Assembly: GCA_028823885.1 (NCBI GenBank)
Contig: JAPPFK010000167.1
Location: forward strand, 1-40,867
From: Rhodospirillales bacterium
Lineage (GTDB): Bacteria > Pseudomonadota > Alphaproteobacteria > Rhodospirillales > UBA2165
Length of the DNA: 40,867 nt
Direction of reading: 5' to 3'
The notes under the pieces are model-generated. The model worked only from the letters and a program-made list of their open reading frames with translations, was not told the DNA's origin and did no database searches. Made by a program: the position numbers and the translations under genes. This document shows, piece after piece, positions 3,781-11,693 of this stretch; position 1 is the first letter of the stretch; every line of letters begins with the position of its first letter.

Positions 3781-3932
3781 GCAGCACTACTCCGTTTGCG
3801 GTGTCCGAGCCGCCATCATGCGCGCCGGAATTGGACACGCAAGGGCCAAGACGATCCAAAATTCGCGTCGGACGGCGCGAATTTACGAATTCCCGGCTTG
3901 CGCCGCCGGAGGATTTTTCTAATTTTCACCTC

Positions 3933-6443
3933 ATGCAGCTTGCAACCGACCGCGAGCGGGTGGTTGCGGTCCTGGGACCGACAAACACCGGCAAGACCTA
4001 CCTGGCATTCGAGCGGATGCTCGGCCATGGCAGCGGCGTTATGGGTTTTCCGCTTCGTTTGCTGGCGCGGGAGAATTATGACCGGGCGGTCGCCGCCAAG
4101 GGATCCCGCGAGGTCGCGCTGATTACGGGCGAAGAGAAAATCGTCCCCCCATACGCAAAGTATTTCTTCTGCACCGTGGAAAGCATGCCGATGGAGCGCG
4201 AGGCGGCTTTCGTCGGAATCGACGAGGTGCAGCTGGCGGCCGATCCGGATCGCGGCCATATCTTTACCGACCGCATCCTTCGGGCGCGCGGCACCGAAGA
4301 GACCATGTTCATGGGCGCCGAGTCGATCAAACCGCGGCTCAGCCAGCTGGTGCCGGGTATCGAGTTCATGGCGCGCCCACGTTTCTCCAAGCTGAACTAT
4401 GCGGGCCACAAGAAGATCGTCCGGCTCCCCGCCCGCTCGGCGGTCGTCGGGTTCAGCGCCGCCGACGTCTATGCGATCGCCGAACTGATCCGCCGCCAGC
4501 GCGGCGGCGCCGCAATCGTCATGGGCGCGCTGAGTCCGCGAACCCGGAATGCCCAGGTGGCCCTCTTCCAGAACGGCGACGTGGACTATCTCGTCGCGAC
4601 CGACGCCATCGGCATGGGCCTCAATATGGACATCGATCACGTCGCTTTTGCGGCGTTGGGCAAGTTCGACGGCCATCACGCCCGCGGTTTGAGGGCGGAG
4701 GAGCTGGCCCAGATCGCCGGCCGCGCCGGCCGGCACATGAGTGACGGCACCTTCGGGACCACGGGTGACGCCGGGGAAATCGAGCCGGAAATCATTCAGC
4801 GGATCGAATCCCATGAATTTGACCGGCTGAGACAGATTTGCTGGCGAAACCCGGTTCTGGATTTCAGCACACTCGCCTCGCTGGGAGAAAGTTTGCAACG
4901 GGCCCCCGATCTGCCCGGCCTGATCCGGGTCCGCGAGGCGCAGGACGAACGCGCCCTTGCCGATCTGGCTCAAAACCCCGCCATCGCCGATCGGGCCGCT
5001 GCCGAAAGCGACGTGCGGCTGCTTTGGGACGTGTGCCAGATCCCCGATTTCCAGAAGCTGATGAGTGACACTCACGTGAGACTATTGGGGCAGGTCTATA
5101 CCCATCTCATGGACGGCAACGGCCAACTGCCCAACGACTGGGTGGCCGGTCATGTCAGCGGCATCGACAGGCCGGACGGCGATATCGAGACTCTGCTCGC
5201 CCGAATCAGCCGGGTGCGCATCTGGACCTACATTTCCCACCGGGCCGATTGGCTGAACGACCCGGAGGCCTGGCAGGGCCGAACGCGAGAAATCGAGGAC
5301 AAGCTCTCCGACGCCCTGCACGACCGCCTCACTCAACGGTTCGTCGATCAGCGGACCGCGGTGCTGATGAAACGGCTGCAGGACCGGGAAGATTTGACCG
5401 CCCTGGTCGACGGGTCCGGAGACGTTCTGGTCGAAGGGCATTATGTCGGCCGCATGGACGGATTTCGCTTTACCCCCGACCGCGCCGATGGCGACCTGGC
5501 CGGCCGGGCGGTGACCAATGCGGCCATGAAGGCCCTCAACGCCGAGATCAATCGCCGGATCACCCGGCTCGAAAAGGCGGCCGCCGGCGATCTGGTCCTC
5601 GACGATCAGGGACTCATCGAGTGGGAGGGACAGGCTCTCGCCCGCTTGCTGCCCGGCCGCTCGCCCCTTCTGCCGAAGCTTGGAATTCTCGGCAGCGAGC
5701 TGCTGGACGGAACCGCGCGCGGCCGGGTCGAACGGGTTCTCGGCGAGTGGCTGCGCAATCGGATCGCAACCGATCTGGAGCCCTTGGTGCGGGCGACCGG
5801 GAGCACGGACCGGGGTCCGGTCCGCGGTTTGATTTTTCGCCTGGAAGAGGGCCTCGGCAATATCCGGCGGGAAGAGGTCGCGGACGAACTGGCCAAGCTG
5901 CCCCAGGAAGATCGCGCGGCGCTGCGGCAATTCGGCGTCCGCATCGGGCGGGATAGCCTCTATCTGCCAAGACTGTTGAAACCGAAATCGGCGCGGCTTG
6001 CCGCCATTCTGGCCGCGGTGCACGGCAAGTTCAGCCCCATTCCGCCCATTCCGCCCGCGGGCCGCTCGTCGGTCCGAATATCGGAGGCGGATGACCAGAA
6101 AATCCTCGGTGCCGCCGGCTACCGTGTATTGGGAAGGCTCGCCGTCCGCATCGATCTGCTCGAGCGCCTGTTGTCCCTGGTCTGGAAGGATCTCCCCAAA
6201 ACCCCGGCCAAGGTGACGCCCGAGATGCTCAACCTGTTGGGTTGCGGCGAGGAGGATATGGACGGCGTGCTCAAGGCAACCGGTCTTCGGCGCCGGCAGA
6301 CGGTCGACGGTATTGCGTATTTCCCTCCCCGCCGCCCAGCGCCCGGCCCGAAGAAGCGGAAACCCAAATCCGGACCACCGAAGGAAACGGTCGACGAGGA
6401 TTCGCCCTTCGCCAAACTTCGCGAAATCGTGGACACCCGATGA
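3933..6443 (+). CDS. SUV3-like DEx(H/D)-box RNA helicase (ORF open from 3801; ATG 3933 preferred)
   Basis: VLGPTNTGKTYLAFERMLGHGSGVMGFPLRLLARENYD (Walker A), GIDEVQLAADPDRGHIFTDRIL, VATDAIGMGLNMDIDHVAF and QIAGRAGR motifs. Confidence 0.9.
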   Translation: MQLATDRERVVAVLGPTNTGKTYLAFERMLGHGSGVMGFPLRLLARENYDRAVAAKGSREVALITGEEKIVPPYAKYFFCTVESMPMEREAAFVGIDEVQLAADPDRGHIFTDRILRARGTEETMFMGAESIKPRLSQLVPGIEFMARPRFSKLNYAGHKKIVRLPARSAVVGFSAADVYAIAELIRRQRGGAAIVMGALSPRTRNAQVALFQNGDVDYLVATDAIGMGLNMDIDHVAFAALGKFDGHHARGLRAEELAQIAGRAGRHMSDGTFGTTGDAGEIEPEIIQRIESHEFDRLRQICWRNPVLDFSTLASLGESLQRAPDLPGLIRVREAQDERALADLAQNPAIADRAAAESDVRLLWDVCQIPDFQKLMSDTHVRLLGQVYTHLMDGNGQLPNDWVAGHVSGIDRPDGDIETLLARISRVRIWTYISHRADWLNDPEAWQGRTREIEDKLSDALHDRLTQRFVDQRTAVLMKRLQDREDLTALVDGSGDVLVEGHYVGRMDGFRFTPDRADGDLAGRAVTNAAMKALNAEINRRITRLEKAAAGDLVLDDQGLIEWEGQALARLLPGRSPLLPKLGILGSELLDGTARGRVERVLGEWLRNRIATDLEPLVRATGSTDRGPVRGLIFRLEEGLGNIRREEVADELAKLPQEDRAALRQFGVRIGRDSLYLPRLLKPKSARLAAILAAVHGKFSPIPPIPPAGRSSVRISEADDQKILGAAGYRVLGRLAVRIDLLERLLSLVWKDLPKTPAKVTPEMLNLLGCGEEDMDGVLKATGLRRRQTVDGIAYFPPRRPAPGPKKRKPKSGPPKETVDEDSPFAKLREIVDTR

Positions 6444-6823
6444 CCGACCAGGCATCGATCCGCATCGACAAGTGGTTGTGGCATGCAAGGTTCGTAAAGA
6501 CCCGAAGTCTCGCGGCCAAACTGTGCCAAGGCGGCAAGCTGCGGCTCAACGGCGAGCATATCTCCAAGTCCCATCAGGCGCTCCGGCCCGGGGACGTGCT
6601 GACGTTTCCGCTCGGCCCTCATATCCGGGTCGTCAAAGTCGTCGCGCTCGGCGAGCGGCGCGGTCCGGCGGCCGAGGCGCAAGGGCTCTACGAAGACCTG
6701 GCGCCGCCCGAGCGCCGTCCCGGGGCGTCCGAACCTCGGACCGCCAAGCTATCCCGGGAACCGGGCAGCGGCCGTCCGACGAAGTCGGAACGCCGGGCGA
6801 TCGATCGGCTGATGAACCGCTGA
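6440..6823 (+). CDS. S4-domain RNA-binding protein, Hsp15/HslR-like
   Basis: IRIDKWLWHARFVKTRSLAAKLCQGGKLRLNGEHISKSHQALRPGDVLTF is an S4 domain; ATGA overlap with the helicase stop. Confidence 0.9.
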   Translation: MTDQASIRIDKWLWHARFVKTRSLAAKLCQGGKLRLNGEHISKSHQALRPGDVLTFPLGPHIRVVKVVALGERRGPAAEAQGLYEDLAPPERRPGASEPRTAKLSREPGSGRPTKSERRAIDRLMNR

Positions 6824-6889
6824 CCGAGACGCGGCAAACGGATCGCCGCGGGTGCTTGCCGGGCTCCGGGCGCCATGCTAGGCAACGGC

Positions 6890-7363
6890 ATGATCAATAG
6901 ATTCAAGGCGCTGTTTGCAACCGCCGATACCGGCGCGGCCGGCGACCTTGGCCGGGATGAGGAACTGCACCTCGCCGCGGCCGCCCTGCTGGTGGAATCC
7001 GCCTGCCTCGACGGTCATTTCGACGGGGATGAACGGTCCAGCATCGAACGGCTGCTCAAGGAGCGGTTCGAATTGGAAGAGGATGAAGTCTCCTCATTGG
7101 TGGCCGATGCCGAGGAAGCGGTTGCGGAGTCCGGCGAACTTTACGGCTTCACCAAGGTGATCAAGGACCGCTACTCCAGCGAAGAGCGGGTGGAAATGAT
7201 CGAAATGTTGTGGGAAGTGGCTTTTGCGGACGGCCGGCTCGATCATTTCGAGGACAATCTCATTCGGCGGGTCGGCGGACTGATATTCGTGTCCGACCGG
7301 GATCGGGGCGACGCCAGGAAGCGGGTCATGGCGAGGCTTGGCATCACCCAAGGCGCAGTGTAA
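6890..7363 (+). CDS. TerB-family (tellurite resistance-like / DjlA-like) protein
   Basis: [35 protein letters not shown]...[34 protein letters not shown]; TerB acidic helical repeat. Start taken as MINRFKALF. Confidence 0.85.
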
Positions 7364-7415
7364 GAAAGAAACGGCCGCCGAGGGGAGTGGCGGCTCAAGT
7401 ATCACGGAGATTGGA

Positions 7416-7751
7416 ATGACATACGTCGTCACTGAAAACTGCATCAAATGCAAGTACATGGACTGCGTCGAGGTTTGCCCGGTGGATTGCTTTTACGAGG
7501 GCGAGAACATGTTGGTGATCAATCCCGACGAGTGCATTGATTGCGGCGTGTGCGAACCGGAATGCCCGGCGGAGGCGATCCTCCCGGATACCGAGGACAA
7601 CCTCGATAGCTGGCTGGAACTGAATACGAAATTCTCGGCATCGTGGCCCAATATCACCGTGAAGGGTGAATCGCCGGCCGATGCGGATGAATGGAAAGAC
7701 AAGCCTGACAAGCTGTCTCAGCTGAGCGAGGCGCCGGGCCCGGGGTCCTAA
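7416..7751 (+). CDS. fdxA: 7Fe-type ferredoxin FdxA
   Basis: [55 protein letters not shown]; two Fe-S cluster motifs of the FdxA family. Confidence 0.93.
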
Positions 7752-7770
7752 GGGCGCTTCCGCCCTCCAA

Positions 7771-7800
7771 CGGTCTGATTTCAGACCGGTCTCCTTTTTC
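7771..7800 (+). terminator. Probable Rho-independent terminator downstream of fdxA
   Basis: CGGTCTGA-TT-TCAGACCG (7771-7788) perfect 8-bp stem followed by GTCTCCTTTTTC; preceded by AGGGCG-CTTC-CGCCCT (7751-7766). Confidence 0.65.
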
Positions 7801-7834
7801 CTTCGGGTAACCGTTCCGGAAACGGGGTGAACAC

Positions 7835-7898
7835 CTGACAAACCTGTGTTTTTGTGCTATATGATGCCGATGCCGAGCCGCGCGCTCGGCATTGGCAT
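7835..7898 (+). promoter_or_regulatory. Candidate sigma70-type promoter overlapped by a 14-bp inverted repeat, upstream of carD
   Basis: CTGACA (7835-7840) - 17 nt - TATATG (7858-7863); inverted repeat ATGCCGATGCCGAG (7864-7877) / CTCGGCATTGGCAT (7885-7898), loop CCGCGCG. Confidence 0.5.
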
Positions 7899-8080
7899 TT
7901 GGGGTTACGGTCAATACATCGAGCGTCCACAGGCGAGCGTCCGCAAACGAGTGCCCAAGACGCGGCATCGGATATCGCCGCGTCACTATGGAAATTTAAT
8001 GGTTGAAACACGGTGACGGCCGATGGGTCCGACTTCGGCCCGAATCCGGCGGTTCCGGCACCAAGAACCGAGAAGGTAGT

Positions 8081-8869
8081 ATGGCAACCAAGGCAACCAA
8101 GGCAACCAAGGCAACCAAGACAACCAAGGCGACCAAATCGACCAAATCGACGACCAAGACAAAGAAAGCGGCGAAGGCCCCCGCGAAGCCGGCCAGGAAG
8201 GCGAAGCCTGCGGCAAAGGCGTCGAAAACCGCGAAACCGGCAACCAAGGCGACGGCCAAGACCACGGCAAAGGCCGCGGCCAAGACCACGGCGAAGGCGG
8301 CTGCAAAACCAAAGGCGGCAGCGAAACCGGCGCCCGCGAAGACCGCCAAGCCAGCGCCCAAGAAGAAGGCGGCGGAGCCGAAGTTGGCGTTCAAGGCCGG
8401 CGACTACGTGGTTTACCCGACCCATGGGGTCGGGTTGGTTTCCGGAATCGAAAAGGAGACCATCGCCGGGCACGACCTCCGGCTAGTGGTGGTCACGTTC
8501 GACACTGATCGCATGACCCTTCGGGTGCCGACCGACAAAATGGAGGTATCGGGTCTCCGCAAGTTGAGCAGCCGCAAGGTGATGGACAATGCGGTGACGA
8601 CGCTCAAGGGGCGGGCGCGGATCAAACGCACCATGTGGAGCCGCCGGGCCCAGGAATACGAAGCCAAAATCAACTCCGGCGATCCCGTATCCATCGCCGA
8701 GGTGGTGCGCGACCTCCACCGCAATGTCGGCCAGCCCGATCAATCGTTCAGCGAGCGGCAGATTTACGAAGCGGCCTTGGAACGGCTCGCCGGCGAGTTC
8801 GCGGCCGTCGAGAGCATCGAGAAGGAAGAAGCGACCGAGAAGCTGGAGCAGGTCCTGAACGCTGCTTAA
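8081..8869 (+). CDS. carD: CarD/CdnL-family RNA polymerase-interacting regulator with a Lys/Ala/Thr-rich N-terminal extension
   Basis: Core FKAGDYVVYPTHGVGLVSGIEKETIAGHDLRLVVVTFDTDRMTLRVPTDKMEVSGLRKLSS...RIKRTMWSRRAQEYEAKINSGDPVSIAEVVRDLHR is diagnostic; N-terminal MATKATKATKATKTTKATKSTKS... tail of about 105 aa. Confidence 0.93.
   Translation: MATKATKATKATKTTKATKSTKSTTKTKKAAKAPAKPARKAKPAAKASKTAKPATKATAKTTAKAAAKTTAKAAAKPKAAAKPAPAKTAKPAPKKKAAEPKLAFKAGDYVVYPTHGVGLVSGIEKETIAGHDLRLVVVTFDTDRMTLRVPTDKMEVSGLRKLSSRKVMDNAVTTLKGRARIKRTMWSRRAQEYEAKINSGDPVSIAEVVRDLHRNVGQPDQSFSERQIYEAALERLAGEFAAVESIEKEEATEKLEQVLNAA
8083..8152 (+). repeat. Short tandem repeat, 9-bp unit (GGCAACCAA and variants), coding for the CarD tail
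   Basis: GCAACCAAGGCAACCAAGGCAACCAAGGCAACCAAGACAACCAAGGCGACCAAATCGACCAAATCGACG. Confidence 0.85.
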
Positions 8870-8878
8870 AGCGAATTG

Positions 8879-8916
8879 GGCGGGGCGTTAGCGAATTTTT
8901 AACGCCCCGCCTTTTT
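8879..8916 (+). terminator. Rho-independent terminator downstream of carD
   Basis: GGCGGGGCGTTA (8879-8890) / TAACGCCCCGCC (8900-8911), perfect 12-bp stem, then TTTTT. Confidence 0.93.
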
Positions 8917-8961
8917 ATTGGATGGAACGATCCCCATTGCCTGGCACGGACAGTTCCTCTC

Positions 8962-9762
8962 ATGGAAGTTGCGGAAAAATTTGCGGTTATTCGCGCATCA
9001 GGGCGCTACTGGACGGTTGGCGCCGTTCATAGCGAGGCCGACCGGCTGCAAGATCTCCATCGCCGGATGGAGCAGCGGCTGAAGGACAACGACAAACTCG
9101 TCTATCTCGGAAATTTTCTCGGCATCGGGGCCGCGGCCGTCGAAACGGTTGATGAAATGCTGCTTTTCCGCAGGCGCTTCCTCGCCCGGCCTCGGGCTCA
9201 CATCAAGGATTATGTAATCCTGCGGGGCGCGCAGGAGGAGATTTGGCAAAAGCTGCTCCAGATTCAGATGGCCCTCAATCCCGGCGAGGTGTTGAACTGG
9301 ATGATGGAGCACGGCGCCGGACCGACGATGCAGTCCTACGGCGCCGACCCCGAAGACGCGCTTGCCGCCGTTCGGGAAGGCGTAACGGCGCTCAATCGCT
9401 GGGCCGCGTCACTGCGCGACCGAATCCGCGGCCTCGACGGCCATGCCGCGCTCATCGCCAGTCTGCGCCGGGCGGCGTACGGCGACGACGGCGGCATGTT
9501 GTTTGTACATTCCGGCCTCGATCCGGCCCGGCCGATTACCAGTCAGGCCGATGATTTTTGGTGGAATAGCCAGGGTTTTGATGAAATTACCGCACCCTAC
9601 GGCACCTACCGCCGTATCGTACGCGGGCACGATCCTCGTGGCGGCGGCGTCCAAATCAACCCGTACACCGCGACGATTGACGGCGGTTGCGGTCACGGCG
9701 GAAATCTCGTTGCGGCGTGCTTCGACCCGCTGGGCGAGATGGTCGATCTGATCGAAGCCTAG
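8962..9762 (+). CDS. Degenerate PPP/calcineurin-type metallophosphatase-like protein (predicted pseudoenzyme)
   Basis: Overall PPP layout is kept ([87 protein letters not shown]), but the GDxHG, GDxxDRG and GNHE motifs are altered. Confidence 0.7.
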
Positions 9763-9763
9763 G

Positions 9764-10237
9764 TTGGCCGGCGGCCGGCCGCTGCGTATCGTTTCCGGCG
9801 GGCAGACGGGAGTTGATCGGGCCGCTCTGGACGTAGCGCTCCTGCTCGGCTTCGAGATCGGCGGCTGGTGTCCCCGCGGCCGGCGCGCCGAAGACGGGCC
9901 CATATCCGAAACCTATCCGTTGGCCGAAACCCCAAGCGCCGACTACAGCGAGCGCACGGTCGCCAATGTGCGCGATTCGGACGCCACCCTTATTCTGGGC
10001 CGCGGACAACTGTCCGGTGGTACGGCTCTTACCCGTGACATCGCCCGGACGCGCAAGAAGCCGTTGCTGGTGCTCGATCTTCGAACGGCAACGCCGGATG
10101 ATGCCGCCGCCTGGATCAAGCGGCAGGCAATTTCGGTCTTGAACGTGGCCGGGCCCAGGGAGAGCGCCGCCCCAGGCATCTACGGGGAGGCATCTAGCTA
10201 CCTGCGGCAGGTGCTCGGCTCGGTCGCTGCTCGATAA
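9764..10237 (+). CDS. Putative molybdenum-carrier family protein
   Basis: [84 protein letters not shown] start, 1 nt after the upstream stop. Confidence 0.85.
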
Positions 10238-11693
10238 CGGTCTTCACCAGTTGGCCGGCCCGAAGGGGTTGGCCGGGTTCCAGCCCGTTCAGAACCCGGA
10301 AACGCTCCTCCCGGAGGTCGGAATAGGCCATCAGATCGGCGAACTTCTCCACCGTATCGCCGACGCCGACCGCGCGAATACGGATGCGGAGCGGTTTCAC
10401 GGACCCCGCCTCCCGGCGGGTGATGGGTTTCATGCTGAATGTGGTTCGCCGTAACTCGGGATCGAGGCGATTGGTCCGGTCGGCCGGCGTGATGAACATG
10501 AACCGGTAGATCCGCTGGACGCTTTGCCGGATGGCGACCAGGCGAAGATCCGCCGCACCATAGGATCGACGGATTCGGGTGACGCCAGTCGCCCCTTGCA
10601 TGCCGTTGACGGTGATGCCTTCGACGCCGGAAAGCCGCAACCGCTTCCCCCACACCGCCGTCAAGTACCGGGTCATCGGACCGGTGTAATTGCGCTTAAT
10701 GTCAAATCGGATAACCGAGTTGGCGTTGTCCCGCGCGATCACCGCCCTTCGGCCGTTGAACAGGGTAAATCCGGGCGGCACCCGGAACTTGAAGAGAAGC
10801 TCGGGGTGGATGAATTCCTGTCCGCGGACGAATCCTTCCTTGGGATCGTCGCCGAACAACATCCCGTCGAGCGATGCCAGATAGTCGACCCGGCCGCGCT
10901 TCGTTCCGGCCGGGACATTGCCTCTCGCCGCCGCGATGGCCGCCCGCACACGCTCGAGCGGCCTCGGGTGGGTGGCGAGCAAATCAAACTGGTCCACCCG
11001 GTTCGGCGACTTGCCTCTTATTTTCGCTTCCAGCGCGGCATGGGCCCGCATTCGGGTAAGGAAGCTGGCCATGGCCTCGTCGGCATATCCGGTGCGGCTG
11101 AGATATCGCACGCCCAGCGAATCCGCCTCGAATTCCTGCTGCCGGGAAAATCCGCGCAACGTCAGATTGGCCAGCGTCCCGTAAACCTCGTTTGCCGCGC
11201 CGGACCCCAGACCGAGATCCAGCAGGACTGCGCCAATCCCGGCCGCAAACGTGCCGCCGTATCGCTCGGCCGAATGCCGGGCGGTGACGTGGCCGATCTC
11301 GTGGGCGATGACGCCTGCCAACTCCGCTTCGTCGCCGGCGAGCGCCATGAGGCCGCGGGTGACGTAGACATATCCGCCGGGGAGCGCGAATGCGTTGACC
11401 TGGTCCGAATTCAGGATGGTGAACGTAAAGCCGAGATCCGGCAATTCCGATGTTCTGGCCAGGTCCTGGCCGATCCGATTGACATAGGCAACGAGTTTCT
11501 CGTCTTCGTAGACGCCGCCGAATTGTTCGAGAATCTTGGGGTGCTCCTGCGCACCGATGTTCTTTTCATCGGCCAGGCTCATGCCGCCGGTGAAGATCCG
11601 CTTGCCCGTCGCCGGCGCGGTGGCGCACGCCGCCAGCCCGCCCATCAGCAGGATGAGGCCCAGAATCTTGGCTGTCTTTCGCCCGAGGATCAT
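10194..11693 (-). CDS. M48 family Zn metalloprotease, lipoprotein, BepA-like with C-terminal LysM-like segment
   Basis: Lipobox [47 protein letters not shown]-terminal [43 protein letters not shown]. Confidence 0.9.

Follow-up and report, generated by a model that had tools for sequence, protein, structure and literature searches.

The window, that is, the whole stretch of DNA analyzed here (40,867 nt, contig JAPPFK010000167.1 of a Rhodospirillales bacterium), carries directly downstream of carD an ORF for a protein that resembles PPP-type phosphatases, referred to below as pseudo-PPP. The ORF and its immediate surroundings comprise the following features:

8081..8869, plus strand: carD (CarD_TRCF_RID and CarD_C domains), the conserved upstream neighbor, assigned by Pfam and synteny
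8878..8912, plus strand: intrinsic terminator hairpin between carD and the ORF, with a 14-bp stem (−26.1 kcal/mol, z −3.95) and a T tract after it
8962..9762, plus strand: pseudo-PPP phosphatase ORF, ATG start, TAG stop, 266 aa
9764..10237, plus strand: circularly permuted YpsA (cpYpsA) gene of the SLOG family, starting 1 nt past the pseudo-PPP stop, assigned by Pfam PF12694 and synteny

The distance from the end of carD to the start of pseudo-PPP is 92 nt, and the first-pass annotation had correctly placed the ORF directly after carD with a strong terminator in between. It had also assumed a separate promoter; no sigma-70-like promoter match was found in the region 8780-9050, and a promoter of its own is possible for pseudo-PPP in the window. 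The 1 nt spacing on the downstream side suggests that pseudo-PPP and the SLOG gene are co-transcribed in the window, and the cpYpsA gene adjoins pseudo-PPP in a subset of the relatives. From position 3801 to 11693, the gene order is helicase, S4 RNA-binding protein, TerB, fdxA, carD, pseudo-PPP, cpYpsA and M48 protease, and the order from the helicase to the M48 protease is partly kept over many families of the taxonomic order. The CarD protein of the window has a tail of about 100 residues (8081-8380) that is rich in Lys, Ala, Thr and Pro, resembles histone H1 and lies N-terminal to the RNAP-interacting domain. By a simple composition rule, such an N-terminal tail is present in 8 of the 145 CarD ORFs examined.

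All motifs that had been quoted for the ORF were recovered in its 266-aa translation, that is, G20-A-V-H-S24, G50-NFLGI-G56, G89-A-Q-E92, F181-VHSG, V220-RGHDP, I239-DGGCGHGG247 and the segment from W113 to 127. For an overview of how these motifs vary, 161 family members were collected and aligned, 157 of which are distinct:

9019..9033, plus strand: motif 1 remnant GAVHS (residues 20-24), replacing GDxHG; residue 21 is A in 106, S in 47, P in 2, C in 1 and T in 1 of 157 members, never D
9109..9129, plus strand: motif 2 remnant GNFLGIG (residues 50-56), replacing GDxxDRG; residue 51 is N in 140 and D in 13, residue 54 is G in 157/157
9154..9180, plus strand: EMLLFRRRF (residues 65-73), holding a family-specific insertion absent from canonical homologs; F69 in 147/157, R70 in 156/157
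9226..9237, plus strand: motif 3 remnant GAQE (residues 89-92), replacing GNHE; residue 91 is Q in 141, never H, and E92 is present in 157/157
9502..9516, plus strand: motif 4 FVHSG (residues 181-185), His in the window and variable across the family (H72, N43, S33, A5, P4)
9619..9636, plus strand: motif 5 remnant VRGHDP (residues 220-225), replacing VHGHT; R221 in 148/157, H223 in 6/157, F or Y in 107/157
9676..9702, plus strand: C-terminal glycine-rich loop IDGGCGHGG (residues 239-247), common to active PPP proteins according to profile alignments

The relationship to PPP phosphatases is faint at the level of the single protein. Searched alone against Pfam, the window protein matched no family, and its match to the NCBIfam ApaH model (NF001204) remained below the threshold (E 0.07, 12.3 bits versus the 176 bits required). 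With the single sequence as a phmmer query, the PPP-type Ap4A hydrolase 2qjc ("Diadenosine tetraphosphatase, putative") was matched, and the alignment kept motifs 1 and 4 and the C-terminal loop in register. The family profile also matched 2qjc best among PDB entries (1.3e-6), as well as 4j6o (1.6e-4). Among 40 family members, Pfam recognized one, weakly, and the ApaH model 17 at an E value of 0.01 or better (best value 4e-7); the catalytic motifs of this symmetrical Ap4A hydrolase are gone in the family. The profile-profile comparison with hhalign was unequivocal, as the family aligned with active alphaproteobacterial PPP proteins over 226 columns, with the motifs in order (P 99.8%, E 7e-29). 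This full-length alignment with bacterial PPP-type metallophosphatases (PF00149, protein-serine/threonine phosphatase-like) includes the shared elements W-x-x-x-G-G-x-x-T-x-x-S-Y-G, Q and W, and D-T-G...G-x-L. Taken together, the sequence comparisons securely identify the family as genuine PPP/ApaH-type relatives by descent, with full-length homology and motifs in order. A calcineurin-like fold is predicted from this profile homology; an AlphaFold model that was computed from three near-identical sequences (the window protein and two relatives with 95-96% identity) had a mean pLDDT of 38.

With the window protein as query, matches were obtained in 107 of 150 genomes of the order, and these fell into two groups, orthologs with more than about 180 bits and canonical PPP paralogs with about 50 bits or less. 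Orthologs are present in about 77 of the 150 genomes (74 above about 180 bits and three with fragments at contig ends). The genome of the window itself also carries a canonical PPP paralog (G000:C47, locus L001; 33% identity). In the order sample the pseudo-PPP gene is single-copy except in genome G097, which has two orthologous copies (L050 and L055) on different contigs, both beside carD; this may reflect a duplication or a mixed assembly. A profile built from 40 family members matched 135 of 386 genomes of the class at 1e-20, with one copy each. Among 399 genomes sampled across the phylum there were 13 matches, all within the Alphaproteobacteria, and no family match outside of this class. 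The two named relatives are MAGs of Rhodospirillales. No relative was found in the viral contigs searched, and plasmid searches with three members yielded either nothing or weak partial matches (about 29-31% identity), which, where annotated, bear the name metallophosphoesterase. The open-access papers searched on bacterial pseudophosphatases of the PPP type and on phosphatases linked to carD contain no description of the family. As far as these samples reach, pseudo-PPP thus appears to be an uncharacterised family specific to Alphaproteobacteria and kept in roughly a third of the genomes sampled from this class.

The first-pass annotation had described a PPP layout in which most metal-ligand motifs are erased. 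Indeed, the orthologs fix the same substitutions. At the position of the metal-1 Asp in GDxHG, 153 members have Ala or Ser and none has Asp, the bridging Asp of GDxxDRG is usually Asn, and the second Asp of this motif is invariably Gly. The Asn of GNHE is retained in 4/157, its acid His is mostly replaced by Gln and never present, and in 107 members Phe or Tyr takes the place of the metal His in the HGH motif. An ortholog with intact GDxHG or GNHE, which would have pointed to a sequence error, was sought and found in 0/157. In contrast, the ligands D, H, D, N, H and H as well as the acid His are all retained in 15 of 15 canonical homologs from within the taxonomic order, and likewise in the paralog in the genome of the window. 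None of the hallmarks of active PPP enzymes, the GDxHG Asp, GDxxDRG and GNHE, is found in the pseudo-PPP family. The number of metal ligands retained out of six is zero in 19, one in 71, two in 59 and three in 8 members. The window protein is among the latter, and its three ligands are all His (H23, H183 and H223). The claim that the later His ligands are kept is thus true of the window lineage and fails for the family, in which H183 is present in 72 and H223 in 6 of 157 members.

The family has also gained invariant residues that are absent from canonical enzymes, namely W17, F69 and R70 in the insertion, W147, G160, A172, W200 and the replacement of His by Arg at position 221. The FRR insertion distinguishes it from the canonical homologs, including the paralog in the same genome. 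An Arg at position 221 is also found in eukaryotic PPPs such as PP1 ("RAH"), and therefore this replacement alone is not novel. Of the polar residues, E92, H161 and D240 are the best conserved, and they occur in canonical homologs as well.

In a phylogenetic tree the whole pseudo-PPP family lies on one side of a branch with a support of 100/100. Together with the shared motif losses, this indicates that the loss looks ancestral and shared, and is due neither to sequencing errors nor to a peculiarity of this one locus. The reading frame is open in nearly every ortholog, and pairwise comparison of the window with its three closest relatives gives dN/dS values of 0.08-0.12, with synonymous sites being saturated for the most distant one (0.08-0.13 among close relatives); values of this size show that the gene is not decaying. 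A conserved lineage, the absence of catalytic residues and purifying selection, the features by which a pseudophosphatase is recognized, are therefore found together.

Is the protein inactive? An ApaH-like phosphatase lost its activity when the Asp of GDxHG was exchanged for Asn, and active ApaH-like phosphatases are noted to lack the second Asp of GDxxDRG (PMC8220851). Therefore, G54 alone would not prove inactivity. However, these enzymes (ALPHs, including 2qjc) keep GDxHG and GNHE, and the pseudo-PPP family keeps neither motif. What argues for inactivity is that the metal-1 Asp, the Asn and the acid His are lost jointly, usually along with the last metal His. The prediction of a catalytically dead protein is thus borne out at the level of sequence, by a PPP relative with the same catalytic substitutions fixed across 157 orthologs. 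The sequences show that one PPP lineage lost the metal-1 Asp, the general-acid His and its partner Asp (of GDxxDRG) in all members examined, while the remaining ligands decayed to differing degrees, the core fold signatures were kept and new family-specific invariants were gained. Such a protein would be unable to perform bimetal phosphoester hydrolysis. The retention of the same inactive form across genomes suggests that it now works by binding something, and not as an enzyme. Most probably, then, pseudo-PPP represents an alphaproteobacteria-specific family of PPP-fold pseudophosphatases whose role is to bind or to scaffold rather than to catalyze. A functional parallel is the eukaryotic pseudophosphatase STYX, in which a conserved fold without catalysis serves in binding, competition and scaffolding (PMC10211241). 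However, STYX has a cysteine-based fold, in contrast to the metal-dependent PPP fold of this bacterial, class-wide family.

The partner or regulated process might, tentatively, be linked to CarD. In Caulobacter, CarD (CdnL) is an RNA-polymerase-binding protein (PMC5324124). Across the class, 143 of the 160 loci with usable flanks have carD as the immediate upstream neighbor in the same orientation, and the median gap is 92 nt, as in the window. In 17 of the 143 genomes no more than 40 nt separate the two genes, without a terminator-like hairpin, and co-transcription with carD is likely there. This gene order makes a functional tie plausible, and in a more specific version of the proposed role pseudo-PPP would be a dedicated CarD partner that modulates the CarD-RNA polymerase interaction or CarD levels, which is conceivable, but doubtful at present. 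Several results speak against it. In the window, the strong terminator separates the two genes. carD is present in 341 of the 386 genomes of the class versus 135 for pseudo-PPP, and thus CarD function does not need pseudo-PPP. fdxA precedes carD in 124 of 138 carD-linked loci with enough sequence; because this order is similarly conserved, the synteny with carD may be partly passive. Rate covariation in mirror-tree tests was mixed: CarD scored higher than FdxA and the helicase, yet lower than the M48 protease (0.57 versus 0.77). A signal specific for CarD was not obtained. Moreover, pseudo-PPP persists elsewhere when it is away from the carD locus, and inspection of such loci by eye revealed no evident alternative shared partner. 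At one locus (L181 in G241), also inspected by eye, pseudo-PPP is flanked by an fdxA-like frame immediately upstream and by an M48 protease gene downstream, with carD missing in between; at L142 and L174, where pseudo-PPP is not at the carD locus, there is a sigma-32-like (rpoH-type) gene on the downstream side. A class-wide PPP pseudophosphatase that is a dedicated regulator of the CarD-RNA polymerase system is somewhat less probable still.

Binding in the old pocket was the mode that the first-pass annotation had suggested, with a phosphoprotein or nucleotide as ligand. A trap for a phosphopeptide, Ap4A or NpnN-capped RNA, which would protect or sense its ligand, would fit the names of canonical relatives (protein or dinucleotide phosphatases), the weak ApaH matches of 17 of 40 members and the SLOG-family neighbor downstream in a subset of genomes. 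In PPP enzymes, however, phosphate is contacted by two Arg residues, one in GDxxDRG and one in W-I-R, and by the Asn of GNHE, and these residues are not kept in the family. Their loss renders a classical phospho-ligand site unlikely, and this part of the earlier proposal is not supported.

Slightly more improbable is that pseudo-PPP is still an enzyme, with a relocated or altered active site and a different reaction, using either one metal bound via H23/H183/H223 or the residues E92, R88, R221, H161 and D240. E92 and R221 are indeed kept at motif positions, the window protein retains its three His ligands, and the ALPHs have remained active despite one lost Asp. However, the family does not conserve H23, H183 and H223 as a set, 19 members have no ligand left, and E92, H161 and D240 do not point to a new site because canonical homologs share them. 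A decaying pseudogene or a chance resemblance, which the degenerate motifs and the missing Pfam recognition of the window protein might suggest, is hardly credible, being contradicted by orthologs throughout the class that are nearly all open, by a dN/dS of about 0.1 and by the hhalign E value.

In the reviews consulted, the pseudophosphatases covered are eukaryotic and for the most part cysteine-based in fold (PMC10211241). A metal-dead PPP family that is under selection and sits beside carD offers a clear target for finding out what an emptied PPP fold does in bacteria. Names assigned by homology, such as metallophosphoesterase or ApaH, would mislead for this family. Pseudo-PPP is a candidate partner for CarD and, if the regulator reading were true, would be a case in which bacteria use the PPP fold to control transcription without enzymatic activity.
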